Below are positions 37,372-60,781 of a stretch of DNA of 64,000 nucleotides, in pieces. Position 1 is the stretch's first letter, and each line of letters begins with the position of its first letter. Under the pieces are notes generated by a model. That model saw only the letters and a program-made list of their open reading frames with translations, did not search any database and had not been told where the DNA came from. Source of the DNA: Chloroflexota bacterium (GTDB taxonomy: Bacteria; Chloroflexota; UBA6077; FW602-bin22; JACPRP01); contig JACPRP010000040.1 of NCBI GenBank assembly GCA_016189905.1, forward strand, positions 1-64,000. Reading direction: 5' to 3'. Position numbers and translations under genes: made by a program.

Positions 37372-38568
37372 CTATCGCTTGTACTTACCCAATGTCTGTA
37401 CGACGTAATCCGCGAACTGATTGTCGATGAGGTCCTTGAGGTCGACCTTTTGTGAAAGGAAGCCATTGGCGGCGTACCAGTCCTGATCCTGTGCAATGCT
37501 TTCGGCGTTCACATAGGCATCGGGGTTCAGCCCAGAAAACACTACCTTATCGTAGAGGTCCCGCTGCTTCAACGAGGTTCGCTTCATCATAATGCTGATG
37601 ACCTCTTCGCGCGCCTTCGGATCCTTTTTTACAAAGGCGTCGTTGTAATCTCTGTAGGCCTTGATGTAAGCCAGAAGGAAGCGCTTACCTACATCCGCCC
37701 GCTCCTGAGCGAACTTGCCCGAGTAAATCAGGACGGCTACCTGATGATTGGGGTAGATCTCGTCAGTGCCTTTCCAGCGCACGTGCAGGCCCTGGTCGAT
37801 GCCCATCGTCAGAAAGGGCTCCATCACAAACCCCGCGTCGACCGATTTCCCGGCGAAGGCGGCGTTCATGTCGGCGAAGCCTAGATCAACGATATTCACG
37901 TCTTTCCAGGTCAGACCGACTGTGTTCATCACAATGTCGAGTTCCGGATGATTCGCGGCGCCCGCCTTGCCTGCAGGTACTGCGACGTTCTTGCCCTTCA
38001 AATCCTCAACTTTTCTGATAGCGCCGCTATCCCAGAGGTCTTTCCTCACGACCAGCCAGATATAGCCCATGCCCGGCGGCACACTCGCTTTATCCGCCAC
38101 TATCTTCATAGGGATGCCCCGCTGAACGGCATTGAAGAGACCGGGAGTGGCGCTCAAGCCAGCTATCTCGACTTCACCAGTAGCCAGCAACTGGATCATC
38201 TGCGGGGCCTGCGTGGCCCCCACCACGGTGAGATCGATGTTCTGCTCTTTGAAGTAGCCCTTCTCATCGCCGATAAAGTAGCCTGCATCCGAGGCCCGGC
38301 CCGCCGGGTCCACCGCGATCTTCACCGTTGCCGCCGTGGGCTTCGGTGCGGCCGCCGCCTTGGTGGGTGCAGGCGCCGCCTTGGTCGGTGCGGCCGCCGC
38401 CTTTGTCGGTGCAGCCGCTGCTTTGGTGGGCGCAGCCGCCGGCGCCTTTGTCGGCGCGGGCGCGGAAGTCGGTGTCGGCGTAGGCGCCGCGGCGCACGCA
38501 ACCACGAGCGACAGAAGCAGGGCAAAGGTTACCGAGAGTCCCAGGGAGACCGATCGAGTACGATCCAT
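37372..38568 (-). CDS. NitT/TauT-type ABC substrate-binding lipoprotein 1
   Basis: A 398-residue lipoprotein. The signal ends LLSLVVACAAAPT with a lipid-anchored Cys. A long low-complexity spacer of APTKAA-like repeats (about residues 28-75) keeps the domain away from the membrane. The binding domain starts VKIAVDPAG and has the NMT1/SsuA-like fold pattern (GYFKEQNIDL, LKGKNVAVPAG, FVMEPFLTMG). No permease or ATPase lies nearby. GGAGGTG precedes ATG 38568. It is about 75 percent similar by eye to the protein at 38977, and both have nearly identical 5' leaders, so they are recent duplicates. Ligand unknown. Confidence 0.84.
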   Translation of the reverse strand: MDRTRSVSLGLSVTFALLLSLVVACAAAPTPTPTSAPAPTKAPAAAPTKAAAAPTKAAAAPTKAAPAPTKAAAAPKPTAATVKIAVDPAGRASDAGYFIGDEKGYFKEQNIDLTVVGATQAPQMIQLLATGEVEIAGLSATPGLFNAVQRGIPMKIVADKASVPPGMGYIWLVVRKDLWDSGAIRKVEDLKGKNVAVPAGKAGAANHPELDIVMNTVGLTWKDVNIVDLGFADMNAAFAGKSVDAGFVMEPFLTMGIDQGLHVRWKGTDEIYPNHQVAVLIYSGKFAQERADVGKRFLLAYIKAYRDYNDAFVKKDPKAREEVISIMMKRTSLKQRDLYDKVVFSGLNPDAYVNAESIAQDQDWYAANGFLSQKVDLKDLIDNQFADYVVQTLGKYKR

Positions 38569-38639
38569 TCTTTCACCTCCGAAGATGTGCGTTGAGATCG
38601 TCGCCGATGAACCAAGGGATCAAACCAAGTAATCGATTC

Positions 38640-38800
38640 GTCAGAAGATAGCGACTTAAGGAGTCACTTATGAATCCCACGCTACAATGCGGAGGCCCCA
38701 CGGCGGGTATGGATAACTTAGCTACGGGTCGTTACTCTACGGTGAGCCGTTATCGGTAAAATAAGAGGCATAAGGTGCTGCGGTGAAAGCCTCTTAGCTA
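38640..38800 (-). ncRNA. Structured leader RNA, copy 1
   Basis: The 5' leader of NitT-like gene 1. On the RNA strand, UAAGAGGC (38796-38789) pairs with GCCUCUUA (38769-38762) around a 19-base loop, followed by a CCG-AUAA-CGG hairpin (38756-38747) and a third stem around GGGGCCUCCGCA with CCCGC/GCGUGGG arms (38707-38675). The leader is nearly identical to copy 2 at 40250 although it precedes a different gene. Loops are as conserved as stems. I do not recognise a known riboswitch class. This is an inference from comparison of copies inside the window. Confidence 0.6.
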
Positions 38801-38805
38801 CGCGC

Positions 38806-38834
38806 AATATAACATCTGGACAGTGGCTTGTCAA
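38806..38834 (-). promoter_or_regulatory. Promoter of NitT-like gene 1 and the downstream TctC gene
   Basis: Minus strand TTGACA (38829-38834), 17 bp, TATATT (38806-38811). The same arrangement occurs at four other units here. Confidence 0.8.
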
Positions 38835-38877
38835 TCCGTGGTGGTGCTCCTCCTCTCCTCTCCTCTACAAAAGGACG

Positions 38878-38909
38878 AAGGGTCTCGGCCTTCGAGCGCC
38901 GAGACCCTT
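38878..38909 (-). terminator. Terminator after NitT-like gene 2
   Basis: AAGGGTCTCGGC and GCCGAGACCCTT form a perfect 12-bp stem with an 8-base loop. In the minus direction it is followed by CGTCCTTTTGT, so it can end transcription of the gene that stops at 38977. Confidence 0.75.
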
Positions 38910-38976
38910 CCCACCAGCTAAGACGACCGTTCGCTTCGTCGAGGCTGCCTCGCATGTTCGAAGCGAAGCGGAGAGT

Positions 38977-40167
38977 CTATTTTTTGTACTTGCCCAACGT
39001 CTGCACGGCGTAATCCGCGAACTGGTTGTCGATCACGTCTTTGAGGTCAACCTTCTGCGGGAGATAACCGTTGGCAGCGTACCAATCTTGATCTTTGGCG
39101 ATGCTCTCGGCGTTAGCGTAGCCGTCGGGATTCAAGCCAGGGAATATGAGCTTGTCGTACTGATCACGCTGTTTGAGCGACGTGTTCTTCATCAGGATGT
39201 CGATGACCTCCTGACGTGCTTTCGGGTCTTTCTTCACAAAGGCGTCGTTATAATCGCGAACGCCCTTCAGGTAGGCGTTGTAGAATCTTTTGGCGACTTC
39301 GGTTCGCTCCTGAGCGAACTTGCCCGAGTAGATCGAGACGGCGACCTGGTGATTGGGGTAGATCTCGTCGCTGCCCTTCCAGCGCACGTACAGACCCTGC
39401 TCGAGGCCCATCGTGAGCAGCGGCTCCATCGGGAAGCCCGCGTCGACGGATTTTCCGGCGAAGGCGGCGTTCATATCGGCGAAGCCGAGGTCAACGATGT
39501 TTATGTCTTTGATGCTCAGGCCGACCGTCTGCAATAAGAGGTCGACCTCGACGTGATTGGCGGCGCCGCCCTTGCCAGCGTTCAGGGTGACGTTCTTGCC
39601 CTTCAAATCCTCGACTTTCCTGATGGCGCCGCTATCCCAGAGGTCTTTCCTCACCACGAGGGCGATGTAGCCCATTCCAGGGGACACGCTCGCCTTGTCG
39701 GCGACCACCTTGAGGGGGATGCCCCGGCCGATGGCGTTGAACAGGGCAGGACTGATGCTGCCACCGCCGGCCTCGATCTCGTTCGTCGCCAGCAACTGGA
39801 CCATCTGAGGCGCCTGCGTGATGCCCAGCTCCTCGACCTGAATGTTCTGTTCTTTGAAGTAGCCTCTCTCGCGGGCGATGAAGTAGCCGGCATCGGAGGA
39901 TCGACCGACGGGGTCAACCCCAAACTTCACCGAAGCCGCCGCGGGCTTTGGTGCGACCGCCGCCTTTGTCGGCGCCGGGGCCGCCTTGGTAGCCTCGGCC
40001 GCTACTGTGGGCGCGGCCGCCTTGGTGGGTGCAGCCGCCGGCGCCTTGGTCGGCGCAGGCGCGGATGTCGGTGTTGGCGTGGGCGCCGCGGCACACGCAA
40101 CTAACAGCGATACGAGCAGGGCTGAGGTTACCACGAGACCAAAGGAGACTAATCGAGCACGATCCAC
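38977..40167 (-). CDS. NitT/TauT-type ABC substrate-binding lipoprotein 2
   Basis: A 396-residue lipoprotein and close paralogue of the one at 37372. Signal ends LLVSLLVACAAAPT; an Ala/Pro/Thr/Lys-rich spacer follows; the binding domain begins VKFGVDPVG. The main differences from paralogue 1 are around the pocket: QAPQMVQLLATNEIEAGGGSIS replaces QAPQMIQLLATGEVEIAGLSAT, which may shift ligand choice. GTG 40167 lies four bases after GGAGGTGG; the ATG upstream at 40221 is inside the leader. It forms its own unit with a terminator at 38878. No transport partner is visible. Confidence 0.84.
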   Translation of the reverse strand: MDRARLVSFGLVVTSALLVSLLVACAAAPTPTPTSAPAPTKAPAAAPTKAAAPTVAAEATKAAPAPTKAAVAPKPAAASVKFGVDPVGRSSDAGYFIARERGYFKEQNIQVEELGITQAPQMVQLLATNEIEAGGGSISPALFNAIGRGIPLKVVADKASVSPGMGYIALVVRKDLWDSGAIRKVEDLKGKNVTLNAGKGGAANHVEVDLLLQTVGLSIKDINIVDLGFADMNAAFAGKSVDAGFPMEPLLTMGLEQGLYVRWKGSDEIYPNHQVAVSIYSGKFAQERTEVAKRFYNAYLKGVRDYNDAFVKKDPKARQEVIDILMKNTSLKQRDQYDKLIFPGLNPDGYANAESIAKDQDWYAANGYLPQKVDLKDVIDNQFADYAVQTLGKYKK

Positions 40168-40249
40168 TTTTCCACCTCCGAAGATGTGCGTTGAGATTAT
40201 CGTCGACGACCCAGGGATCAATTCAAGCGATCGATTCGTCAGATAGCGA

Positions 40250-40395
40250 CTTAGGTGTTACTTTGGGAATCCCACGCTACATTGCGGAGGCCCCACGGCG
40301 GGCACGGATAACTCAGCTACGGGTCGTTACTCTACGGTGAGCCGATATCGGCAAATTAAGAGGCATAAGGTGCTGCGGTGAAAGCCTCTTAGCTA
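40250..40395 (-). ncRNA. Structured leader RNA, copy 2
   Basis: The leader of NitT-like gene 2. P1: UAAGAGGC (40391-40384) with GCCUCUUA (40364-40357). P2: the self-complementary GCCGAUAUCGGC (40352-40341). P3: CCCGC (40302-40298) with GCGUGGG (40277-40271), enclosing GGGGCCUCCGCAAUGUA. Conservation with copy 1 extends across about 170 bases; the first gene-proximal bases diverge more. Confidence 0.6.
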
Positions 40396-40400
40396 CGCGC

Positions 40401-40429
40401 AATATAACATCTGAACAATGGCTTGTCAA
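40401..40429 (-). promoter_or_regulatory. Promoter of NitT-like gene 2
   Basis: Minus strand TTGACA (40424-40429), 17 bp, TATATT (40401-40406). The sequence around it matches the copy at 38806-38834. Confidence 0.8.
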
Positions 40430-42203: not shown

Positions 42204-43721
42204 TCAGGGCAGCCTCGGCTCGGCGGCGGCGTTCTGGCCGGCGATTCTGCCCGAGGTGAAGCACTCGCTGAGATTGCCTCCCAACTGGTAGAGGTGGCCA
42301 AAGAAAGAGCCAAGCTCGCCGACGGCGTAAAGGCGCGGGATCGGCTGGCCGAACGCGTCGATGACCTGTTGCCTGGCGTTGTGCACCGGGCCTCCCTGAG
42401 TATTCGTGATCATCGGCCAGACCTGCGCCGCATAAAATGGCGGCTGCACCAGCGGCATCATCGTGCCCGGAGGGCGATTGAACCTGTCCTTACCGGCCTC
42501 CACGCTGACGTTCCACTCGGCTACAGTCGCCGCTAACCGCTCGGCGTCCATCCTCCCCTCGTTCTCGGGGAAGCGCTCCCTGATGGCCTCCGCCAGCCCG
42601 GCGACGCTATCCGCTTTGACGATCCAGCCTTTCTCGATCTCTTGACTGTTATCTTCGCTCCACTCATATTCGTAGCCAGGGAAGGCCATCGGGCGGGCGA
42701 TAGGGCCAGCCTCCCGGCCCTTCTCATCAAAGAGCATATAAGAAGGAATGCGCGGGTAACCTGGCAGATCGGGATCGAAGATCTCCATCGGGCGATATCC
42801 AGTATCCTGCGGCGCCGGCGGATACTCGTCCATGTATCTCGAACCCAGCTTGTCGACCACGACCCACGGCATCTTTCGTTTAGGGTTGCGATAGCCCGGA
42901 ATCGAGTGCCGGTAGGCGATGGGGGAATCGGGTGTCTTGAAGCCGTAGGAGCCGTGAAGGAGCCACATGTGCCACAGCGCCGCGCCCACCTTTTGCGCCA
43001 TGAGAATGCCGTCCCCTGTGTGCGTGAGTGGACCCATCGAGTAAAATGGAATGCCCTGCAGGTATTGCTTTTTAAGCCAGTCGTTCTGCTCGAAGCCGCC
43101 GGTGGCGAGGATCACGGCTTGACGGGCACGGATGGCGAGTTCTTGTCCGTCTTTTTCGACGATTGCGCCGACCACAGCCCCCGAATCGTCGGTCTCCAAA
43201 CGACGGGCCGGCGTGGAGAGCATCGCCTTTATGCCTCGGGACTCGACGTTGTCGACGGTCACTTTGATAAGATTCACCCCCGCGAGCTTGTTGCGGCAGA
43301 GCAGCCAGTCGAAGCCGTCGAAGCCGGGGACCCTGGGCACTCGAATGCTGTACCAGGTTTCCTGGCCGGGATAGGGATAGCTGCCCTGTTGGCCAGGCAC
43401 CCTCCTGACCTCGGCGCCGTCGATGGCCCCCAGTTCGCGGATGAAGGCCTCGTTTCCCGCGAGGGCCTCGGCGAAAGTGCGAATGATGTCGGTTTCCATT
43501 CGCCCACCCGAGATGGCCGTGAGGTACTGGAAGGCCGCCTCCGCGTCCGCCGCGCACAGGATCTGCCCGCCGGCGAAGATCGAGCATCCGCCCGGGTACT
43601 GGTTCTTCTCGACGATGAGCACGTCGGCTCCGCCGTCTCGGGCTATGACAGCCGCCACGCCGCCAGCCAGTCCATAGCCGACGACGAGCACATCAGTTTC
43701 AATATCCCAAGCTTGTCGCAT
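42204..43721 (-). CDS. FAD-dependent oxidoreductase, FAD_binding_2 type
   Basis: A 505-residue flavoprotein of the fumarate reductase / ketosteroid dehydrogenase superfamily. It starts with a Rossmann loop, DVLVVGYGLAGGVAAVIA, then IVEKNQYPGGCSIFAGG, has VILATGGFEQND in the middle and ends RLYAVGELGSFFGHLYQLGGN. It should oxidise or reduce a C=C bond next to a carbonyl; I cannot name the substrate. It is the last gene of the dehydratase operon, with AGGAGG overlapping the preceding stop. A role in reducing or desaturating the product of the radical enzyme is a reasonable guess. Confidence 0.85.
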   Translation of the reverse strand: MRQAWDIETDVLVVGYGLAGGVAAVIARDGGADVLIVEKNQYPGGCSIFAGGQILCAADAEAAFQYLTAISGGRMETDIIRTFAEALAGNEAFIRELGAIDGAEVRRVPGQQGSYPYPGQETWYSIRVPRVPGFDGFDWLLCRNKLAGVNLIKVTVDNVESRGIKAMLSTPARRLETDDSGAVVGAIVEKDGQELAIRARQAVILATGGFEQNDWLKKQYLQGIPFYSMGPLTHTGDGILMAQKVGAALWHMWLLHGSYGFKTPDSPIAYRHSIPGYRNPKRKMPWVVVDKLGSRYMDEYPPAPQDTGYRPMEIFDPDLPGYPRIPSYMLFDEKGREAGPIARPMAFPGYEYEWSEDNSQEIEKGWIVKADSVAGLAEAIRERFPENEGRMDAERLAATVAEWNVSVEAGKDRFNRPPGTMMPLVQPPFYAAQVWPMITNTQGGPVHNARQQVIDAFGQPIPRLYAVGELGSFFGHLYQLGGNLSECFTSGRIAGQNAAAEPRLP

Positions 43722-43730
43722 AGAAACCTC

Positions 43731-45158
43731 CTAAGCACATGAAAGCATCTCGACGAACGCTTCGATGCGGTTATCGGTTTGTTCGACCGATTCGCCGCGT
43801 CCCAGGGCATCGCTGAAAATGGTCATGCAGGGGATGTCGCTTTCCTTCTGCACGATGTCGCAGACCAGGCGCGCAACCGCCGACTGGAAGTTGCACCCCC
43901 ATTGATAGCCGAAGATCAGCCCGTCGGCGCGCGACTGCTTGACCTGATCGACCACCCAGCGCGCGCGCTCCTCGGTGGGCAGATCGTAGGGCTCCAATAG
44001 AGTGCCGCGAGCATAGTTCCCGTAGGGATCGCCCTCCTCGTGCACGTCAGGCATCCAGACGTAGCTCCAGCGATCGTCGGCGCCGACGAGGACACCGCCG
44101 GCGCTATCCAGCTTGTGCAGATTCGGATCGAAGCAGGAGCCACACTTGAAAACCCGCACCGGACGCGCGGCTAGCTCGGCGCCGCTCTGCGATCTGGCGA
44201 CCCTCTCGCGCACCTCATCGCGCATCTGTGCGAGCACGTGCTCGGCGGCGACCGGATCGGCATCACAGTCTTTGCCCATCGCGAGGATGCCGTAGAACAT
44301 GGCGCTGCCGGTGGGCGGAACTGCGGCCGATCTGAATAGCTCGACGATCTCACGGGTCAGCCCGCGAATCCGATTGTGAGCGCGAATCTGAGCCCGAAAC
44401 TCTTCGTCTGTCGTCGTCCGGCCGGTCACCTCATCCAGCTTCGCTATCAAACGCCGGATGCCGGCGGCCACGTAGTCCACGGCCCAGCTCTTGTGGCGCT
44501 CATAGTTTGGCGGATAATCCACCAGCAAGCTCTCGGTTTTCAGCGGATTGGAGCGGTGGGATTCGACGAGGAAGGTCACGTCCGAACAGCGCGTGCGCGT
44601 GTAGGGCGCCAGTAACGAGACCGGCACGACACCGTTACGAATCGCCGTGTGGCATGTAACCTGACGACAGGTCTCGTAAGCAACCACGCGGTTCCCTTCC
44701 TCGTGAATATCGGCTTTTTTCCAGTCCTTGTTCCGCAGGTTCAGCCCCTCGGCCACGTAGTAGCACGCCAGGGTCGTCATATCGCCCGGTCGCAGCGGAA
44801 CCACGTCGGCCGCGTAGTAAGGCTCTAGCGTCTGTCCACCCTGCACGTAAATCAGAGGCTTTCCCTGCTGCCGCAGCTTCTCCACCCTGAACCGTCGTGA
44901 GATAACCAGATAATTCAGCTTGAGGCCGCTGATCAGATCGACGTAATAGGGCAAGCGCTGCGGCGAATTCGGGTTGCTGGTAAACACGAAGGGGAACTTG
45001 CGCGGGCCCTCGTCAGTCATAAACTCCCAGATTTCCTCTGGCGAAACCGTTGTGCCGTCCCGAAGAGGCAGCGGACCTGTCGCGAGAAACTGCTCCTTGA
45101 TCTCTTGCGGATAATAAAGCAGGTCGTTCTTGACCACCATCGGATAGATATCCGGCAT
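43731..45158 (-). CDS. 2-hydroxyacyl-CoA dehydratase-family protein, long form B2
   Basis: A 475-residue protein of the HgdB/BcrBC family, about 80-100 residues longer than usual subunits. Candidate Fe-S cysteines are in YETCRQVTCHTAI, FKCGSCFDPN and GYQWGCNFQSA. The C-terminus (IPCMTIFSDALGRGESVEQT...RIEAFVEML) is the family ending. It resembles the long forms at 45209 and 50214 (about 65-70 percent identical by eye) but is the most divergent of the three and starts with a different sequence. Such subunits pair to hold the site where a one-electron reductant drives elimination of water or ring reduction on a CoA ester. Substrate unknown. Confidence 0.82.
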   Translation of the reverse strand: MPDIYPMVVKNDLLYYPQEIKEQFLATGPLPLRDGTTVSPEEIWEFMTDEGPRKFPFVFTSNPNSPQRLPYYVDLISGLKLNYLVISRRFRVEKLRQQGKPLIYVQGGQTLEPYYAADVVPLRPGDMTTLACYYVAEGLNLRNKDWKKADIHEEGNRVVAYETCRQVTCHTAIRNGVVPVSLLAPYTRTRCSDVTFLVESHRSNPLKTESLLVDYPPNYERHKSWAVDYVAAGIRRLIAKLDEVTGRTTTDEEFRAQIRAHNRIRGLTREIVELFRSAAVPPTGSAMFYGILAMGKDCDADPVAAEHVLAQMRDEVRERVARSQSGAELAARPVRVFKCGSCFDPNLHKLDSAGGVLVGADDRWSYVWMPDVHEEGDPYGNYARGTLLEPYDLPTEERARWVVDQVKQSRADGLIFGYQWGCNFQSAVARLVCDIVQKESDIPCMTIFSDALGRGESVEQTDNRIEAFVEMLSCA

Positions 45159-45180
45159 TGCCTTGCCCCCTTTCCTAACC

Positions 45181-45203
45181 AGAAAGCGCCGACCTGGCGG
45201 CGC
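45181..45203 (-). terminator. Hairpin with T-run between dehydratase genes
   Basis: On the minus strand GCGCCG, loop, CGGCGC, then TTTCT. A matching hairpin follows the duplicate gene at 50186. It lies inside the operon, so it may reduce expression of the two genes after it. Confidence 0.6.
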
Positions 45204-45208
45204 ATCAG

Positions 45209-46639
45209 CTACGCGGCGTAGGAGAGCATCTCGACAAAGGCCGCGATGCGATTTTGGGTTTGTTCGGTCGATTCACCACGCCCCAGCTCGTCGAGACTGA
45301 GGGTGGTCGCGGGGATATCGGTTTCCTTCTGCACTATGTCGCAAACCATACGCGCGACGGCTGACTGGAAGTTGCACCCCCACTGGTAACCGAAGATCAG
45401 ACCCTCGGCTCGCGACATCCTGACCTGATCGACGATCCAGGCCGCGCGGTCCTCCGTGGGAAGATCGTACGGCGCCGACAGGGTCGTCCTGGCATAGTTC
45501 GCGAAGATATCGCCTTCCTCCTCTACGTCTGGCGTCGAGATATCGCTCCACCAGTCATCGGCGCTGACGAGCGCGCCTCCTGCCCGGTCCAGCGCGTGAA
45601 AGTTTATGGCGATGCACGAGCCACACTTAAATATGCGGGCAGGCCGCTCGGCCAATTCCCCACCCTTCAAAGGCACCGCCGTTCGCTCCCGCACCTCATC
45701 ACGCAATTGTGTCAGTACGTGCTCCGCCGCCACCGGATCGCCATCGCAATCCTTGCCCAGCGCGAGAATGCGGTAGACCAGCACGCTGGACGCAGGCGGA
45801 ACAGGCGCGGCCCTCCAGACCTCGATCGTCTCGCGCGCCAGGCGCCGAACGCGGTTGTAGGCGCCTATCTGCCGGCGGAAATCATCGGCCGTCGTCGTCT
45901 TGCCCGAAATGGCGTCAATTCTGGCGATCAATTGTCGGATGTTCTCGGCCACGTACTCCACGGCCCACGTCTTGTCAGGCGCGTAGTTGGTAGGATAGTC
46001 CACGAGGAAACAGTCAACCTTCCTCGAGCTGTCGCGATGGGACTCGACGAGGAAGGTCGCGTCCGAGCAGCGCACCCGCGTGTAAGGGGCGACCAGATCC
46101 ACCGGCACCACGTTGTTGCGGATCGCCGCGTGGGTGGTGATCTGATGGCAGGCCTCCATCGAGACGGTGCGGCTTCCTTCCTCGCGGATGTCTATCTTCT
46201 TCCAATCCTTGTTCCGAATGTCCAGGCCTTCGGCCACGTAGTAGCACGCCAGCTCCGTCATATCGCCGGGCCGCAGGGGAAGAGCATCGGCGGCGTAATA
46301 AGGCTCCAGCGGCTGGCCACCCTGCACCAGCACCAGAGGCTTGCCTAGTTTTCGCATCTTCTCCACCCTGAAGCGCCGCGAAATGATCATGTAGTAAAGC
46401 TTGATGCTGCCGATCAGATCGACGTAGTAGGGCAGGCGCTGCGGAGAGTTGGGATTGCTGGTGAACATGTAGGGGAACCTGCGCGGTCCCTCGTCGGTCA
46501 TAAACTCCCAGATTTCCTCCGGCGACGCCCGCGTCCCGTCCCGAAAGGGCAGCGGGCCGGTGGCCAGAAACCGCTCTTTGATCTCTTCAGGGTAGAGCAG
46601 CAGGCCGTCTCTCTCCACCATGCTGTAGCTCTCTAGCAT
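45209..46639 (-). CDS. 2-hydroxyacyl-CoA dehydratase-family protein, long form B1
   Basis: A 476-residue HgdB/BcrBC-family subunit. It begins MLESYSMVERDGLLLYPEEI; cysteines appear in FKCGSCIAINF, GYQWGCNFQSA and RMVCDIVQ. It is nearly the same as the protein at 50214 (over 85 percent by eye). The AAGGAGGCGGC ribosome site, the ATGCTAGAGAGC start and the downstream hairpin are also shared, so one is a copy of the other. ATG 46639 overlaps the preceding stop by seven bases. It probably pairs with the 394-residue short subunit encoded just upstream. The frame continues upstream, but the shared ribosome site fixes this start. Confidence 0.84.
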   Translation of the reverse strand: MLESYSMVERDGLLLYPEEIKERFLATGPLPFRDGTRASPEEIWEFMTDEGPRRFPYMFTSNPNSPQRLPYYVDLIGSIKLYYMIISRRFRVEKMRKLGKPLVLVQGGQPLEPYYAADALPLRPGDMTELACYYVAEGLDIRNKDWKKIDIREEGSRTVSMEACHQITTHAAIRNNVVPVDLVAPYTRVRCSDATFLVESHRDSSRKVDCFLVDYPTNYAPDKTWAVEYVAENIRQLIARIDAISGKTTTADDFRRQIGAYNRVRRLARETIEVWRAAPVPPASSVLVYRILALGKDCDGDPVAAEHVLTQLRDEVRERTAVPLKGGELAERPARIFKCGSCIAINFHALDRAGGALVSADDWWSDISTPDVEEEGDIFANYARTTLSAPYDLPTEDRAAWIVDQVRMSRAEGLIFGYQWGCNFQSAVARMVCDIVQKETDIPATTLSLDELGRGESTEQTQNRIAAFVEMLSYAA

Positions 46640-47817
46640 GCCGCCGCCTCCTTTTCCTCTCGCTGCATGTAAATCACGTCGATGAAGCTCTCCACACGCG
46701 TCCGCAGCGCCTCCACATCGGACGGAGAGTATTCGGTGTGTATCTCGAGGAAAGGCACGCCGAGCTTTTCCTGCATATATTTCATCGTGGCATTGGCCTT
46801 GAAGGTGAACGGGTCGCAGAAGCGCAGCGTGTGGTAGATCATGCCCTCTGCCCGGTGCTCTTTGGCCAGTTGGACCATCGTCGTGAAGCGCTTGTCTTCG
46901 TCCAATGGCAAGAGGCACGGCAGGGAGGCGCACGGGATGCGATCGAGGTAGGCATCGGCGAGGCCATCCAGCGAGTGGTCGTGCACCATCAGCTCCTTGT
47001 GGAAGCGCAAGCCGGTGCAGAGATCGTCGACGACGATCCGGCCCCCCAGTTGCTCGATGAGGTCGATGATCTTTGTGTCCCCTGGCGCCAGTATGCTGCC
47101 AGAAACGAAGATGCGCGGTCGGTTATTAGGCTTAGCCGTCTCTCCCACCGACTCGACCTCGGTCAGAAGGTCCTTCAACAGCGACAGATATTGCCGGCGA
47201 TCCAGGTAGAAACCTGCCTGGACCACATCGAATATGTCACGCCAACTGATCGGCGATGCATCCCGCGATTGACGCGCGTAGAGCTCGAGGATGGCTTCAC
47301 GAATCTGCCGATACAATTCTATCGACTCGCTCAGTCGCCCAGGCTCAAGCGTGCGCCCAGTCATCGCCTCGACCTGTCGGACGAAGTCGGCCATCTCGTG
47401 CCTGAAGAACACCCTGCCCTCGGGCAGGTAGAAGTTGCGGGGCACTCCCAGGGCCACCACTTCTGGCTTGAAGTAGTATTTCACTAGCTCCGACAGTCGG
47501 AACATCTGGATGCACGTGCCGGCCACCGCGACGAAGTCCGAGTTCTGCACGTAGGGGTCCTTCCCGTCGGCGAAAAGCCCCACGGATTCCCTGATGAACA
47601 CGCAGTTGTTCGTCGACACGTAGCGTGCGCCCAGGTCGACGAGTGTCTCATCGCCCCCACGCCCCAGCCGCACGGGAATCAGTCCCAACGCGTCGATTAT
47701 CTCTTCGGGTATGTAGCAGCAGAAATAGCCCAGCACTTTCTCGCCTCTGGCCCTCGCCTCTATCAGCTCGCTCGGCCGACGCTCTACTGCCTGACGGATG
47801 CGTTCCAATGTTTTCAT
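46633..47817 (-). CDS. 2-hydroxyacyl-CoA dehydratase-family protein, short form A
   Basis: A 394-residue subunit of ordinary family length. It contains VLGYFCCYIPEEIIDALGLIPVRLG, the usual N-terminal pattern, and three cysteines expected to bind a [4Fe-4S] cluster: STNNCVFIRE, VAGTCIQMF and LRFCDPFTFK. The ATG at 47817 overlaps the activator stop (ATGA), which fixes the start. A longer frame exists upstream but runs antisense-like through the activator gene. Short plus long subunit pairs occur in benzoyl-CoA reductases of the Bzd type and in hydroxyacyl-CoA dehydratases; this sequence alone does not separate the two. Confidence 0.86.
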   Translation of the reverse strand: MKTLERIRQAVERRPSELIEARARGEKVLGYFCCYIPEEIIDALGLIPVRLGRGGDETLVDLGARYVSTNNCVFIRESVGLFADGKDPYVQNSDFVAVAGTCIQMFRLSELVKYYFKPEVVALGVPRNFYLPEGRVFFRHEMADFVRQVEAMTGRTLEPGRLSESIELYRQIREAILELYARQSRDASPISWRDIFDVVQAGFYLDRRQYLSLLKDLLTEVESVGETAKPNNRPRIFVSGSILAPGDTKIIDLIEQLGGRIVVDDLCTGLRFHKELMVHDHSLDGLADAYLDRIPCASLPCLLPLDEDKRFTTMVQLAKEHRAEGMIYHTLRFCDPFTFKANATMKYMQEKLGVPFLEIHTEYSPSDVEALRTRVESFIDVIYMQREEKEAAAC

Positions 47818-48599
47818 CCTCGCGCTGCCCTGCCTTTCGCGATAATTGCCGCGCCGATCGCGCCGACGAGCTGTGGATCGCCCGGCAGGCCAATCGGCGC
47901 GATACCCAGAAGCTCCCCGACGACAGATTGCATGCCGACATTCTTGCCCACGCCGCCGGTGAAGGCCAGCTCCGACTCGACACCCACGCGCGAAAGCAAT
48001 CCGGCTACACGCCGTCCGACGGAATAGTGGACCCCGGCGACGATGTTCTCGGGTTTTTCGCCCCTGGCCATCAGGCTGATGCACTCCGATTCGGCGAAGA
48101 TGGTGCAGGTGCTGCTCACCGGAACCCGTTCGGTCGCCGTGTTGCACAACTGGCCCAGCTCCGCGACCTCTACCTCGAATACTTTTGCGACCACTTCCAG
48201 GAAGCGGCCGGTGCCGGCGGCGCACTTGTCATTCAGGACGAAGTTGACCACCTGTCCTCTTTCCCCAACACGTATCGCCTTGCAATCCTGTCCGCCGATG
48301 TCGAGCACCGTCCTCACTTTGGGGTTCAGGTAGTACGCTCCCATGGCGTGGCAGGTTATCTCGGTGGTCGTGCCGTTGGCGAACGGGGCGACAATACGCC
48401 CATAGCCAGTGGCCACGGTGAATCGAACATCGTCAGAGCGCAGATTTGCCTTTTCCAGGGCCTGTTCGAGGGCCATTCGTCCGCTCCGCTCGGAGCTAAC
48501 CCTCGTAGGCACCACCGCGTGGGACAGAATGTCCCGATCGTTCATAATGACCGCCTTGGCGGCCACGGACCCAATGTCTACTCCCGCAAAAGCTCCCAC
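47814..48599 (-). CDS. Dehydratase/reductase activating ATPase (HgdC/BcrAD family)
   Basis: A 261-residue ASKHA-fold ATPase. It starts MGAFAGVDIGSVAAKAVI and has VLDIGGQDCKAI, NDKCAAGTGRFLE, CTIFAESECISL and TGGVGKNVG. The two half-sites of a homodimer share one [4Fe-4S] cluster through the conserved Cys. It uses ATP to push one low-potential electron into the dehydratase or reductase. The GTG at 48599 is nine bases after AGGAGG. One activator for several partner subunits is economical and suggests the paralogous subunits swap on one machine. Confidence 0.92.
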   Translation of the reverse strand: MGAFAGVDIGSVAAKAVIMNDRDILSHAVVPTRVSSERSGRMALEQALEKANLRSDDVRFTVATGYGRIVAPFANGTTTEITCHAMGAYYLNPKVRTVLDIGGQDCKAIRVGERGQVVNFVLNDKCAAGTGRFLEVVAKVFEVEVAELGQLCNTATERVPVSSTCTIFAESECISLMARGEKPENIVAGVHYSVGRRVAGLLSRVGVESELAFTGGVGKNVGMQSVVGELLGIAPIGLPGDPQLVGAIGAAIIAKGRAARG

Positions 48600-48649
48600 A
48601 GACACTTCCCTCCTCACAACATCGTCTATTTTTTCGCCGTCGAACCTGC

Positions 48650-49819
48650 CTACTGGTATCGGCCAAGTTGCTGGATCGCGTAATCTACGTACTGGCTATC
48701 GACGAAATCCTCGGGCTTTGGCTTCTCTTTGATCTGCCCGGTTTGCAAGAGCCAGTCCACCTGTTGCATCAGGCTGTCCATGTTGAGATAGCCGTCAGGG
48801 TTCAGCCCGGGAGGCGCTATCTTTTCCCATAGGGCGGCGTCCTTCATCGTCGTCGCCTGAACGAGCATCCTGATTATCTCGGACTTGCTCTTGTTCTTCA
48901 TAAAGGCGTCGTTGTAATCCCTGGCGCCCTTGATGTAGGCGATCATGAAGCGCCTGGCTACGTCGGGCTTTTCCTTCATAAACGCCTCTGAATACGATAT
49001 CCCCGTGAGTTGGTGATCGGGGGTCGCCTCGTCGAAGCCCAGAACACGAACGGCGACGCCCGCCTCAATGGCCTTGACGACCGTTGGCTCCGACACCACC
49101 CCAGCGTCGATGCTGCCTCCGGCAAACGCCGCTGGCATATCGGTGATCTTGAGATCGACCAGGTCGACGTCGTCCATCGTGAGCCCGACCGTCTTAAGCG
49201 CAGTATAAAGATTGTAGCCGTTGACGCTGGCCTTGGCAGGTGGCGCGATGGCAACCTTCATGCCCTTCAGGTCAGAAAGGCCTTTGTACTTTCCCTGATC
49301 CACCAGGTCTTTGCGCACCAGGAGGGCGATGAAACCGTTACCTTTCGACAATCTTCCCTTGTCGGCGACGCCCTTCACGCGGACGCCTCGCGCCAGCGCG
49401 TTGTAGAAAGCGGCGCTGCCCATCACTCCGGCCACTTCTAACTGGCCTGTCGACAGGGCAGGCACCATCTCTCCCGCCGCGCTGAACGGCTCGAACTGAA
49501 ACTGGATACCTTGCTCTTTGAAGTAGCCCCTGCCATCGGCGATAAAAAGGCTCGCGTCAGAGGCCCCCCCTTGCAGCCCAACGCGCACGACGGCGAGGTC
49601 TTTGGGGGCCGAAGCAGCAGCAGCGGGGGTGGCGGACTCTGTCGCCGGCGTCGCCGCCTTCTCCTGTTGTTCCACCTTGGCAGCCGCCGTCGGCTTCGGC
49701 TGCTCGGAGGACGGCTTCGCCTTTTCGACGGGCGGCGCAGACTGCGTACAGCCTGCCAGACCCAGAGTTAAAGCCACGACAGCGATAACGCCTGTGAGGA
49801 TCAGGTAGTTTCTGCTCAT
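48650..49819 (-). CDS. NitT/TauT-type ABC substrate-binding lipoprotein 3
   Basis: A 389-residue lipoprotein. The signal ends LTLGLAGCTQSAP with Cys as anchor; a short Lys/Pro/Glu-rich spacer follows. The domain begins VVRVGLQGGASDASLF and has GYFKEQGIQFQFEP and LKGMKVAIAPPAKAS. It is the first gene of the dehydratase operon, 50 bp before the activator, which ties ligand binding directly to the radical enzyme. It is more distant from paralogues 1 and 2. The start is ATG 49819 with AAAGGAG upstream. No permease or ATPase accompanies it. Confidence 0.84.
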   Translation of the reverse strand: MSRNYLILTGVIAVVALTLGLAGCTQSAPPVEKAKPSSEQPKPTAAAKVEQQEKAATPATESATPAAAASAPKDLAVVRVGLQGGASDASLFIADGRGYFKEQGIQFQFEPFSAAGEMVPALSTGQLEVAGVMGSAAFYNALARGVRVKGVADKGRLSKGNGFIALLVRKDLVDQGKYKGLSDLKGMKVAIAPPAKASVNGYNLYTALKTVGLTMDDVDLVDLKITDMPAAFAGGSIDAGVVSEPTVVKAIEAGVAVRVLGFDEATPDHQLTGISYSEAFMKEKPDVARRFMIAYIKGARDYNDAFMKNKSKSEIIRMLVQATTMKDAALWEKIAPPGLNPDGYLNMDSLMQQVDWLLQTGQIKEKPKPEDFVDSQYVDYAIQQLGRYQ

Positions 49820-49924
49820 CGCCACTCCTTTGCGCACAAAACCTATGTGTACTAGCCCTGCACCTGATAGAGGCTAACGACAGTTTGAACCGCCGAACCT
49901 CGACAGTGACGTCCTGTGGGCGAT

Positions 49925-50080
49925 AATCGATCGGGAGAATCTCGCGCCGTGGTGCGGATTCCGTGGCAGGCACAAAGATAGCATTAATTCATTAACCATC
50001 ATTGCTGCGACGATGCAGATAACGTTGCCGTCGTGGCAACCCAAACAAGAGGATTTCTCCTGCGGACAATGTGCGTTATA
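49925..50080 (-). ncRNA. Structured leader RNA, copy 4 (divergent)
   Basis: The leader of NitT-like gene 3 and the dehydratase operon. RNA strand: GUCCGCAGGAGAAAUCCU (a small AGGA/UCCU hairpin, 50061-50050), CUCUUG, then UUGCC-ACGAC-GGCAA (50039-50025), and further down GUGCCUGCC...UCCGCACC...GCGCG (49972-49932). The first 40 bases align with copy 5 at 52060, and the 3' part with copies 1-3. Weaker than copies 1 and 2. Confidence 0.45.
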
Positions 50081-50086
50081 CAAGAG

Positions 50087-50115
50087 AATATAGTACCTTA
50101 TGGAATGCTTGTCAA
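50087..50115 (-). promoter_or_regulatory. Promoter of the dehydratase operon
   Basis: Minus strand TTGACA (50110-50115), 17 bp, TATATT (50087-50092). Spacer begins AGCAT as in the promoter at 52025. Confidence 0.8.
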
Positions 50116-50185
50116 CATGATGAACTTGTCATATGAATGAAAGCGGGCAGTTTCTAAACCGAACGTCGACCCGTTAACGCTACCA

Positions 50186-50208
50186 AGAAAGCGCCGATCT
50201 GGCGGCGC
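50186..50208 (-). terminator. Terminator after long form B3
   Basis: Minus strand GCGCCG, loop, CGGCGC, TTTCTT. It is the counterpart of the hairpin at 45181, duplicated along with the gene. Confidence 0.7.
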
Positions 50209-50213
50209 ATCTG

Positions 50214-51644
50214 TTACGCGGCGTAGGAGAGCATCTCGACGAAAGCCGCGATGCGATTTTGGGTTTGTTCGGTCGATTCGCCACGTCCCAGCTCGTCGAG
50301 GCTGAGGGTTGTCGTGGGAATGCCGGCTTCCTTCTGCACGATGTCACAGACCATGCGTGCAACCGCCGATTGAAAGTTACATCCCCACTGATAACCGAAG
50401 ATCAGCCCCTCGGCTCGCGACTGCCTGATCTGGTCCAGGATCCAACGCGCTCGCTTCTCGGTTGGAAGCTCGTAGGGCGCTGATAGCGTCGCGCGGGCAT
50501 AATTCTCGAATATGTCGCCTTCCTCTTCGACGTCTGGTATCGAAACATCGCTCCAGCCGTCGTCGGCGCTGACGAGCGCGCCTCCCGCACGGTCCAGCGC
50601 GTGAAGGTTCAGGACGACGCACGAGCCGCACTTGAATATACGCGCCGGCCGCTCCGCCAGTTCTCCACCCTTCAAAGGGATCGCCGTTCTCTCCCGTACC
50701 TCATCCCGGAATTGTGTGAAAATGTGCTCGGTGGCCACCGGATCGCCATCGCAATCCTTGCCTAGCGCGAAAAGACGGAACAACAGCACGCTGGCAGCCG
50801 GAGGAACAGGCGCGGACCTCCAAGCCTCGACCGTCTCCCGTGCCAGGCGGCGAATGCGGTTGTAAGCGCGAACCTGCCGGCGGAAATCGTCCGCCGTCGT
50901 CGTCCTACCCGAAACGGCGTCTGTCCTCGCGATCAATCGCCGGACGTTCTCGGCGACGTACTCCACGGCCCACGTCTTGTCAGATATATAGTTAGTAGGG
51001 TAGTCCACGAGAAAAGTGTCGACCTTCCTGGGGCTATCACGGTGGGCCTCGGCGAGGAAAGTCACGTCGGAGCAGCGCGCGCGTGTGTAAGGCGCGATCA
51101 GGTCCACCGGCACCACGTCGTTGCGGATCGCCGCGTGGGCGGTGATCTGGTGGCAGGCCTCCATCGACACGGTACGGCTCCCCTCCTCGCGGATGTCTAT
51201 CACCTTCCAATCCTTGTTCCGGATATCCATTCCCTCGGCGACGTAGTAGCACGCGAGTTCCGTCACGTCGCCGGGCCGCAGGGGAAGAGCATCGGCGGCG
51301 TAATAAGGCTCCAGCGGCTGGCCACCCTGCACCAGCACCAGGGGCTTCCCCTGTTTTCGCAGCCGCTCTACCCTGAAGCGCCGCGAGACGATCAGGTAGT
51401 AGAGCTTGATGCTGCCGATCAGATCGACGTAGTAGGGCAGGCGCTGTGGGGAGTTGGGATTGCTGGTGAAGATGTAGGGGAACCTGCGCGGTCCCTCGTC
51501 GGTCATAAACTCCCAGATTTCCTCCGGCGACGCCTGCGTTCCATCCCGAAAGGGCAGCGGGCCGGTGGCCAGAAACCGCTCCTTGATCTCTTCAGGGTAG
51601 AGGAGCAGGCCATCCCGCTCCACCATTCTATGGCTCTCTAGCAT
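50214..51644 (-). CDS. 2-hydroxyacyl-CoA dehydratase-family protein, long form B3
   Basis: A 476-residue near-copy of the protein at 45209, starting MLESHRMVERDGLLLYPEEI with the same ribosome site. Candidate Fe-S cysteines in FKCGSCVVLNL and GYQWGCNFQSA are kept, so it looks functional. Unlike B1 it is a single-gene unit with its own promoter and a structured leader, so its level can change apart from the operon. It may replace B1 in the complex under some condition. The substrate is not known. Confidence 0.84.
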   Translation of the reverse strand: MLESHRMVERDGLLLYPEEIKERFLATGPLPFRDGTQASPEEIWEFMTDEGPRRFPYIFTSNPNSPQRLPYYVDLIGSIKLYYLIVSRRFRVERLRKQGKPLVLVQGGQPLEPYYAADALPLRPGDVTELACYYVAEGMDIRNKDWKVIDIREEGSRTVSMEACHQITAHAAIRNDVVPVDLIAPYTRARCSDVTFLAEAHRDSPRKVDTFLVDYPTNYISDKTWAVEYVAENVRRLIARTDAVSGRTTTADDFRRQVRAYNRIRRLARETVEAWRSAPVPPAASVLLFRLFALGKDCDGDPVATEHIFTQFRDEVRERTAIPLKGGELAERPARIFKCGSCVVLNLHALDRAGGALVSADDGWSDVSIPDVEEEGDIFENYARATLSAPYELPTEKRARWILDQIRQSRAEGLIFGYQWGCNFQSAVARMVCDIVQKEAGIPTTTLSLDELGRGESTEQTQNRIAAFVEMLSYAA

Positions 51645-51774
51645 GCCGCCGCCTCCTTATACGGCTTCTTAATGACGCCGCTGTCATCCAACTCCTTCAT
51701 TATGCGCATATCGATAGTGTACTATCGAAATAGCTCTGGTGATCTGCTTGTCAGGCATCGATCAGGGGCCCTTC

Positions 51775-51921
51775 AAGAACCCTATGCTACGCTGCGGAGG
51801 CCCAAATAGGGGGCATCGGTAACACCACCTTTGGTGTTGTCCATTCGCCACGATGAGGCAGAGATCACAAGCCCAAGAGAAAAGGCAGGACTAGTTGTCT
51901 CGAAAGCATTTGGACTAGGCG
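51775..51921 (-). ncRNA. Structured leader RNA, copy 3
   Basis: The leader of long form B3. The 3' stem is CCCUAU (51811-51806) with AUAGGG (51785-51780), a different sequence from CCCGC/GCGUGGG in copies 1-2 but the same pairing. The enclosed loop keeps GGGCCUCCGCA and GUAGC. Between stems there is an ACAACACC...GGUGUUAC hairpin not seen in the others. The first stem is less clear than in copies 1, 2 and 5. Confidence 0.55.
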
Positions 51922-51922
51922 G

Positions 51923-51951
51923 AATATAGCATCTGTCCGGTTGATTGTCAA
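51923..51951 (-). promoter_or_regulatory. Promoter of long form B3
   Basis: Minus strand TTGACA (51946-51951), 17 bp, TATATT (51923-51928). It is divergent from the promoter at 52025. Confidence 0.8.
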
Positions 51952-59035: not shown

Positions 59036-60781
59036 TTAATCCCAGGTCACGTTATCCCAGGTCACATTATCCCAGGTCACATTGTCCCAGGTCACATTGT
59101 CCCAGGTCACGTTGTCCCAGGTCACGTTGTCCCAGGTCACGTTGTCCCAGGTCACGTTATCCCAGGTCACATTATCCCAGGTCACGTTGTCCCAAGTCAC
59201 GTTGTCCCAGGTCACGTTATCCCAGGTCACGTTGTCCCAGGTCACGTTGTCCCAGGTGACATTATCCCAGGTCACGTTATCCCAGGTGACGTTCGACCAC
59301 GCTGTTCCGCGTGAATCGACCCCGCCGTTGTAGCTCAGGTCTTTCCAGACTAATGGCGTTCTCCCCTTGATCAGAGGAAGCGCGACTACCGCGAAGGAAT
59401 CGGCGGGGCGAATACTCTGCCTGCCGTTGGCTTTGCTCCTGACGGCTCCCGCCGCATCTACGTACCCGGCGCCCACAGTATTGGCATCATACCCCCGAAT
59501 CGCGCTGGCACTGACCATCAATCGGCGCTTCGCCTGATCTGGGGTGATGCCTGGAGCCGCGTTCACCATCAGCGCAGCCACGCCCGAGACCGCGGCGGCC
59601 GCCTGTGATGTCCCACTCAGGCGAAAATACACATCGTCGACCACTCGATCGGGAAGCAATTTGTCCAGGAAGCTGCCCACAACACGGGTCGAGACGATCT
59701 TGCGCCCGGGCGCCACCACATCAGGCTTGGTCAAGCCATCATTCGTTGGACCACGAGAGGAGTATGACAGGGGCAGATCATCAGCCCGGCTCGCGGTGGC
59801 GTTCATATCCAGGCCACCGACGGTCACGATGTAAGGATCATGGCCGGGGGTCACGATCGTTCCTGCGCCGGGGCCCAGATTGCCCGCCGCCGCCACAACC
59901 ATGATACCGGCGTGCCAGGCTACTTCCACCGCCGCAGCCAGGGGATCTTGCCTGTAGGAGCCGAACGCTGGCCCACCTAAAGACAGGTTCAGTACGCGAA
60001 TGCCGTAGGCCTTCCGATTCTGAACTGCCCATTGAATCCCCTGGATCACCGTGGACATCCGCGCGTTGCCGTTGCGATCGATCACTCGCACAGAGGCGAT
60101 GTTAGCCTCGGGGGCGATCCCGCTCCAGTTAGCGTCGCGCCCGGCCGCGATGCCAGCCACGTGGGTGCCGTGGCCACCTGGATCAGGAGAAGACGGCGGG
60201 CCGCCAACCAGATCGATGGAGGCGACGAGACGCCTGGGATCGATGCCGTTGGGCAGCGCCGCCACTCCGGAATCCAGCACCGCTACCGTAACGCCCGAGC
60301 CAGAGAATCCCGTCGCCCATACATCATCGGCATTGAGGGCCTTGGTGTAGTCTATCAGGTCCCCACCATACGGTCCTCCGGTTGCAACGAGGCGCGCATC
60401 CAGGGAAATGTAGCGAACGGCAGGCTCCCGGCTCAGTGCGGCCAGACGTCTGAGGTTGATCTTGCCACTAGCGCCGCCCACGATTCCCAGGCTCCGCGAC
60501 GCCACACCGCCGTGTTTCGCGATTTTCCCCTTCGCATCACGCTCAGGTTTGTCTGACACACTGGAAATAGGCGACGGTGCGCTCATCTGGACGATGATAT
60601 TGACTTCACCTGCCGCATTTGACGTGAGCGCCTGCCGTAACTCGATGGAAAGCTTGCTCCAATCGGCGTCTTGCCGAGGACTGGTTCTACCCTCCTGCGC
60701 TGCCAGGGTCGATGGGCCAAGCAGCAGGACCACCGCGGTTATGACATTGGCCAACAATTTCACTACGCGCTGAGACCGCAT
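59036..60781 (-). CDS. Subtilisin-like serine protease with NVTWD repeats
   Basis: A 581-residue exported S8 peptidase. Signal peptide 1-28 (LLANVITAVVLLLGPSTLAAQ). A propeptide-like region (about 40-130) precedes the catalytic domain: Asp170 in AVLDSGVAA, His204 in GGHGTHVAG, and Ser392 in SGTSQAAAAVSG. A short linker then leads to 17 tandem copies of the pentapeptide NVTWD, which run to the last residue before the stop. The repeats may form a regular ladder or a wall- or sugar-attachment tail. The gene is 70 bp downstream of an LCP-family gene on the same strand. Confidence 0.92.
   Translation of the reverse strand: MRSQRVVKLLANVITAVVLLLGPSTLAAQEGRTSPRQDADWSKLSIELRQALTSNAAGEVNIIVQMSAPSPISSVSDKPERDAKGKIAKHGGVASRSLGIVGGASGKINLRRLAALSREPAVRYISLDARLVATGGPYGGDLIDYTKALNADDVWATGFSGSGVTVAVLDSGVAALPNGIDPRRLVASIDLVGGPPSSPDPGGHGTHVAGIAAGRDANWSGIAPEANIASVRVIDRNGNARMSTVIQGIQWAVQNRKAYGIRVLNLSLGGPAFGSYRQDPLAAAVEVAWHAGIMVVAAAGNLGPGAGTIVTPGHDPYIVTVGGLDMNATASRADDLPLSYSSRGPTNDGLTKPDVVAPGRKIVSTRVVGSFLDKLLPDRVVDDVYFRLSGTSQAAAAVSGVAALMVNAAPGITPDQAKRRLMVSASAIRGYDANTVGAGYVDAAGAVRSKANGRQSIRPADSFAVVALPLIKGRTPLVWKDLSYNGGVDSRGTAWSNVTWDNVTWDNVTWDNVTWDNVTWDNVTWDNVTWDNVTWDNVTWDNVTWDNVTWDNVTWDNVTWDNVTWDNVTWDNVTWDNVTWD
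59039..59294 (-). repeat. 17 tandem 15-bp units encoding NVTWD
   Basis: Each unit is CCCAGGTCACRTTRT on the plus strand. Differences between units fall only at synonymous positions. Because 15 is a multiple of three, all three forward plus-strand frames also stay open through the array, which creates false genes. Confidence 0.95.

Follow-up and report, generated by a model that had tools for sequence, protein, structure and literature searches.

Two tandem units with near-identical leaders

The window, that is, the whole stretch of 64,000 nucleotides analysed here, comes from a Chloroflexota genome represented by a single draft assembly (86% complete). On its minus strand it carries two tandem units, each with a promoter, a 5' leader and a gene for an NMT1/THI5-like substrate-binding lipoprotein:

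40401-40429, minus strand: promoter of lead1, TTGACA-17-TATATT, same sequence as in lead2
40168-40400, minus strand: 5' leader lead1, 233 nt, extending as far as the GTG start codon of its NMT1 gene
40329-40342, minus strand: lead1 hairpin Pb, GCUC-ACCGUA-GAGU, hexaloop with A1/G4
40275-40286, minus strand: lead1 hairpin Pd, CGC-AAUGUA-GCG, hexaloop with A1/G4
38977-40167, minus strand: NMT1/THI5-like substrate-binding lipoprotein gene behind lead1 (PF09084, E 2.2e-18)
38877-38910, minus strand: intrinsic terminator separating the two tandem units
38806-38834, minus strand: promoter of lead2, TTGACA-17-TATATT
38569-38805, minus strand: 5' leader lead2, 237 nt
38734-38747, minus strand: lead2 hairpin Pb, GCUC-ACCGUA-GAGU
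38680-38691, minus strand: lead2 hairpin Pd, CGC-AUUGUA-GCG
37372-38568, minus strand: NMT1/THI5-like substrate-binding lipoprotein gene behind lead2, 75% identical paralogue

We infer that the lead1 transcript starts directly 3' of the -10 box. As the preliminary description had it, both leaders follow the same promoter; the two identical TTGACA-17-TATATT sites, each with TG preceding the -10 box, were the only sigma-70-like ones in the region. Its match of about 170 bases, loops included, was likewise confirmed: lead1 and lead2 showed about 92% identity across 170 bases. The ungapped alignment, ~170 nt long, begins about 12 nt 5' of the -35 box; identity was 92-100% per 50 columns over the promoter and the first ~110 leader bases, about 83% beyond that, and finally about 75% within the genes. 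The two encoded proteins are 75% identical, and their genes agree at 56% of third codon positions. As four-fold sites are only 55% identical, leader identity stands far above that of near-neutral gene sites. Nucleotides 1-57, the most variable part across the wider family described below, are also near-identical between the two leaders, and hence gene conversion or recent re-duplication probably contributes to their likeness, beside constraint.

Further copies of the element in the genome

When the leader was searched by blastn against its own and 60 related genomes, just these two copies were returned, plus chance matches. A profile of lead1 and lead2, run on the loci of the NMT1 genes of the genome, found further copies, and the search was extended by iteration, a pattern search for TCCGCANYGTNGC, a profile from seven copies and a covariance model (R1). 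Lead1 and lead2 are members of a set of at least 13, and probably 15, diverged RNA elements in this genome. The window holds two others, w51 and the weaker C12_49:

51645-51951, minus strand: third window copy, w51, promoter TTGACA-17-TATATT and 278-nt leader (leader 51645-51922; R1 E 1.1e-14, seed)
51845-51858, minus strand: w51 hairpin Pb, AUCGUG loop, imperfect stem
51821-51838, minus strand: w51 hairpin Pc, AACACC-AAAGGU-GGUGUU
51785-51796, minus strand: w51 hairpin Pd, CGC-AGCGUA-GCA
50214-51644, minus strand: HGD-D (2-hydroxyacyl-CoA dehydratase D-component) family gene behind w51 (PF06050, E 6.7e-39)
49820-50115, minus strand: fourth, weaker window copy, C12_49, TTGACA-17-TATATT and leader (leader 49820-50086)
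48650-49837, minus strand: NMT1-type binding-protein gene behind C12_49 (PF09084, E 4.2e-19), its true start probably being the ATG at 49819

Elsewhere in the genome, copies were found at C116:45314, C116:52730, C52:35962, C117:7729, C106:46296, C57:43161, C47:25094, C113:2382 and C19:9592, with two weaker ones on C25 and C105. The eight seed copies of R1 scored E 1e-12 to 1e-17, as they must by construction, and R1 added five copies in this genome, with per-genome E-values of 3e-4 (C57), 1.3e-3 (C47), 1.6e-3 (C113), 0.03 (C12_49; 7.7e-4 for the set searched) and 0.32 (C19). In 15 of 15 copies a sigma-70-like promoter spaced by 17 nt can be read from the hexamers directly upstream, and Pb begins 51-69 nt past the -10 box. 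Since R1 did not include the promoter, this promoter-proximal position provides independent support for the weak members. Pattern matches to Pd at C46, C58, C66 and C73 were rejected as coding or chance. An isolated near-perfect Pb motif, CTCATCGTAGAGGAAACAC, lies divergent from a binding-protein gene on the minus strand of C117 (11868-11886); no open reading frame was found behind it, and it is possibly a decayed copy of the element.

About eleven NMT1-type binding-protein genes lie behind the element, as compared to 51 NMT1 matches over the Pfam cut-off genome-wide. Other copies precede genes for an HGD-D dehydratase component (w51), a TPP enzyme (C113) and UbiD (C19), and the C106 copy is followed by an arylmalonate decarboxylase gene and then a binding-protein gene. 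Duplication had been offered as part of the explanation; since copies also stand before unrelated, non-homologous enzyme genes, gene duplication alone is insufficient. Nor does the element simply follow the gene, because no recognisable copy accompanies paralogues fairly similar to the window proteins, at C116:98042 (58% identical) and on C10 (51%).

The surroundings also deserve description. Window positions 42204-51644 contain four HGD-D-like genes, a BadF/BadG ATPase gene (47814-48617) and one gene each for an FAD-binding and an NMT1-type binding protein, and likely form one catabolic island. At 59036-60781 (minus strand) an open reading frame encodes a subtilisin-like protease with many near-perfect TWDNV repeats at its end. 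In a relative of the same class (G018), 64 matches to the same NMT1-type protein were counted.

Control by a translated leader peptide was considered for the tandem pair. A 16-codon frame, MPLILPITAHRVTTRS / MPLNLPISAHRVTTRS (38730-38805 and 40325-40400, minus strand), is open in both lead1 and lead2, with its stop kept via a TAA to TGA change, and its translation could control the gene behind by attenuation. However, the ATG and the frame are missing from w51 and other copies, no Shine-Dalgarno sequence lies ahead of the frame, and the two versions differ by two amino-acid changes, one of them I to N; we find this mechanism scarcely credible.

The Rfam search of the leaders gave nothing, in line with the earlier remark that no common class could be recognised. 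None of the matches to Rfam 15 in the window and in seven loci with other copies reached a gathering score, and lax thresholds brought up just unrelated snoRNA, miRNA and sRNA models. A covariance-model search of the phylum had been proposed as a check, and its outcome was divided: the genome itself holds many copies with covarying stems, but no copy was found in 399 other genomes of the phylum, the large-scale searches using stricter filters that are able to lose weak matches. R1 matches in eight genomes (G018, G013, G012, G025, G276, G344, G154 and G278) and Pb-pattern matches in six (G001, G002, G008, G009, G011 and G014) lay inside open reading frames and were rejected, as was a Pd-like match in G020 (L006) which overlaps open reading frames; the remaining R1 matches in other genomes had E 0.2-1. 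The case shows that an RNA class can multiply inside a single lineage and still escape Rfam.

Structure and covariation of the common core

Three hairpins make up the common core: Pb, with an RNYGYN hexaloop; Pc, which is variable; and Pd, whose hexaloop reads ANYGUN. The loops of Pb and Pd lie near one consensus, purine-N-pyrimidine-G-pyrimidine-N, with A1/G4. Pb, with a 4-bp stem, was placed in 15 of 15 copies, its stem being mismatched in w51, C116b, C117, C57 and C113; it takes the form CCUC-AUCGUA-GAGG, with the stem variants CUGC/GCAG, CUUC/GAAG, CCUU/AAGG and UCUU/GAGG. G4 of its loop is present in every copy and A1 in all except C116a, C52 and C106, which have G1. Pc stems include AACACC/GGUGUU and ACAGC/GCUGU. 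Pd, of the form GAAUC-CGC-ANYGUN-GCG-nnn-GAUUC (stem CAC/GUG in C106), was placed in 11-12 of the 15 copies and was unrecognisable in C57, C105 and C19; A1 occurs in all recognised loops and G4 in all except C12_49, whose hairpins read CUGC-AUCGUC-GCAG (Pb) and CGC-ACCACG-GCG (Pd). The spacing from Pb to Pd is 42-48 nt (62 nt in C25), and two unpaired stretches are conserved, GGAAAGAC following Pb and CCC preceding Pd. A further hairpin, Pa (CGC-NUYGYN-GCG, mostly without A1), is joined to Pb by a 4-nt linker; it was rejected as a universal third hexaloop, being present in just four copies. In C116b (L124) a hexaloop hairpin, CGC-AUCGUA-GCG, lies four bases 5' of Pb, and with its 4-nt linker this Pa-Pb pair looks like a classical dual hexaloop.

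The three hairpins of the preliminary description were borne out only in part, the supported helices emerging from comparison across the wider family and not from single sequences: folds of lead1 and lead2 were no better than those of shuffles (z -0.30, +0.65) and differed between the copies. RNAalifold on MAFFT alignments likewise yielded hardly any consensus structure, so the helices were placed by eye on the sequences at issue and afterwards tested. In alignment A2, which MAFFT built using only the sequences, pairing is seen in 79% of cells and six pairs show double changes; covariation was 0.173 as compared to 0.106 ± 0.018 in shuffles (0/500), a control that yields no probability for related sequences. 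Sliding the partner by 1-3 columns gave far lower covariation in every case, although this control is somewhat favourable by construction, the helices having been assigned on the same sequences. In alignment A4 (14 copies, Pb and Pd) 89% of cells pair, covariation was 0.262 against 0.139 in shuffles (0/500), and each of the four Pb pairs, as well as the stem of Pd, showed double changes. Alignment A3 agrees with A2 and A4, but was fitted to the model. Hairpins with ANNGNN hexaloops on stems of at least 3 pairs numbered 19 against 5.2 expected, an excess whose significance is overstated because the copies are homologous; the hexaloop reading was also formed after the sequences had been seen. 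Six other classes of first and fourth loop base were not clearly enriched.

A rival reading is a spreading promoter-leader cassette without RNA function, copied before many genes, in which likeness reflects shared descent only. Promoter and leader do move together, homology of lead1 and lead2 starting about 12 nt before the -35 box; the pair is near-identical even in the family-variable parts, and no copies were found in other genomes. Against this, loops and stems of the core have been kept, with compensatory changes, where the flanking leader has strongly diverged, and drift would not preserve Pb in every copy, so that we consider a functionless cassette very unlikely. The cis-acting RNA claimed at the outset was upheld, on stronger grounds than the tandem pair: diverged copies stand at transcript starts before non-homologous genes, show compensatory changes and belong to no Rfam family. 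We are confident that the leaders represent a genuine structured cis-regulatory element.

The ANTAR protein as candidate reader

A1/G4 hexaloops on stems of at least 3 pairs are the published signature of ANTAR targets (PMC3369931, PMC8164766). The genome encodes exactly one ANTAR protein (PF03861, E 1.4e-22), a PdtaR-like REC-ANTAR regulator whose gene adjoins that of a PdtaS-like HisKA_2 histidine kinase. Its closest solved relatives are Rv1626 of M. tuberculosis (1s8n) and EutV (6wsh/6ww6). The EutV residues contacting the RNA loops are listed in PMC8934654; read from an alignment with EutV, whose chain numbering runs two above that of the paper, most of them are conserved in the regulator: R142, K143, K149, E160, M172, N173 and R175 are kept, and K147R, Y164F, R168Q and R177S are changed. 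Rv1626 likewise has F at 164 and Q at 168.

The spacing of the two loops, 42-48 nt, falls outside the linker range of 2-25 nt published for actinobacterial ANTAR targets (PMC8164766), and induction fell sharply once the linker of eutP had been altered to 3 or 14 nt (PMC3369931). A long spacer is tolerable because the ANTAR dimer contacts each hexaloop separately, a single hexaloop being the minimal target (PMC8934654). Of 29 genomes in the class, 23 have the ANTAR pair; since these include the nearest relative, which is without the RNA, the element cannot be predicted from the protein. Reading of the element by the ANTAR protein of this genome is the best explanation, at about even odds.

The loops may instead be recognised by another RNA-binding protein of the host. 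The loop consensus is repeated in Pb, Pd and, in four copies, Pa, and relatives possess the ANTAR protein without the RNA; the A1/G4 hexaloops are, however, those published for ANTAR targets and a matching ANTAR protein is encoded in the genome. We regard a different protein as decidedly unlikely.

The main rival to the ANTAR reading is a new class of small-molecule riboswitch, in which the loops, together with the joining segments GGAAAGAC and CCC, would form a pocket for a metabolite tied to the imported or degraded compounds, the ligand altering translation or transcription. The conservation of these unpaired segments, the promoter-proximal position, the resemblance of the downstream uptake and catabolic genes to a substrate-responsive regulon and the Shine-Dalgarno pairing in lead1, lead2, C52 and C113 all agree with it. 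Yet there is no conserved closing stem to enclose an aptamer; the hairpins are short and stand independently; Pc varies, and some copies have no Pd; one consensus in two loops is more in keeping with a repeated protein site than with a pocket; and differing downstream enzymes suggest differing substrates. The riboswitch implied in the preliminary description is therefore not the best reading, and we hold it to be unlikely; the loop signature points to an RNA-binding protein of the ANTAR type.

As to the mode of control, an intrinsic terminator was looked for in the lead1 and lead2 leaders and none was found. The Pd region can pair with the Shine-Dalgarno sequence in lead1, lead2, C52, C113 and perhaps w51, but not in other copies; in lead2, CCUCCG overlapping Pd has this alternative pairing with CGGAGG. 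General Shine-Dalgarno sequestration was rejected (mean unpaired 0.22 vs 0.26 with shuffled leaders). The predicted pairing suggests translational control for lead1, lead2 and a small number of others, not in general.

From the observed element, its structure, its loop signature and the presence of the protein, we infer a course of events in which a signal would lead the kinase to phosphorylate the PdtaR-like regulator, a dimer of which would dock on the leader, first at Pb and next at Pd, with the A1/G4 hexaloops as docking sites, and stabilisation of Pd would alter how the gene behind is expressed. The wider picture, which we put forward tentatively, is a lineage-specific regulon of at least 15 mRNAs with widely spaced repeated hexaloops, through which one PdtaSR-type ANTAR system may co-ordinate orphan binding proteins and unrelated catabolic enzymes by means other than intrinsic termination. 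In the literature, we found no described target for the ANTAR two-component system in this class of bacteria, in which it is widespread, and the element gives a testable target set for it. If true, hexaloops can be recognised across long spacers, which the 2022 EutV structure permits, and the co-ordination of a subset of some 50 NMT1-type binding proteins with catabolic enzymes is explained.

Comparison with known systems

The NMT1-motif RNA is the xanthine-I riboswitch. The element resembles it in lying upstream of NMT1-type binding-protein genes, but differs from it and from other Rfam riboswitch families in reaching no Rfam 15 gathering score. With the targets of EutV (eut leaders), NasR (nasF) and AmiR (amiE) it shares two hexaloop hairpins with A1/G4 on stems of at least 3 pairs, a position in the 5' leaders of genes for uptake and catabolism, and a REC-ANTAR regulator with a kinase in the genome. 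In contrast to those targets, its loops are separated by 42-48 nt that include a third hairpin, no terminator was found overlapping its second hairpin, loop position 1 is sometimes G, and it was found in one genome only. Because of the spacing, the search that found no terminator, the Shine-Dalgarno pairing confined to some copies and the relatives without the RNA, we call the element ANTAR-target-like but stop short of counting it among the members. ANTAR RNAs of mycobacteria and actinobacteria, with PdtaR (Rv1626), have linkers of 2-25 nt, different downstream genes and diverged sequences; they are like the present case in that Rv1626 is the nearest solved structure to the regulator and that control need not act by termination.
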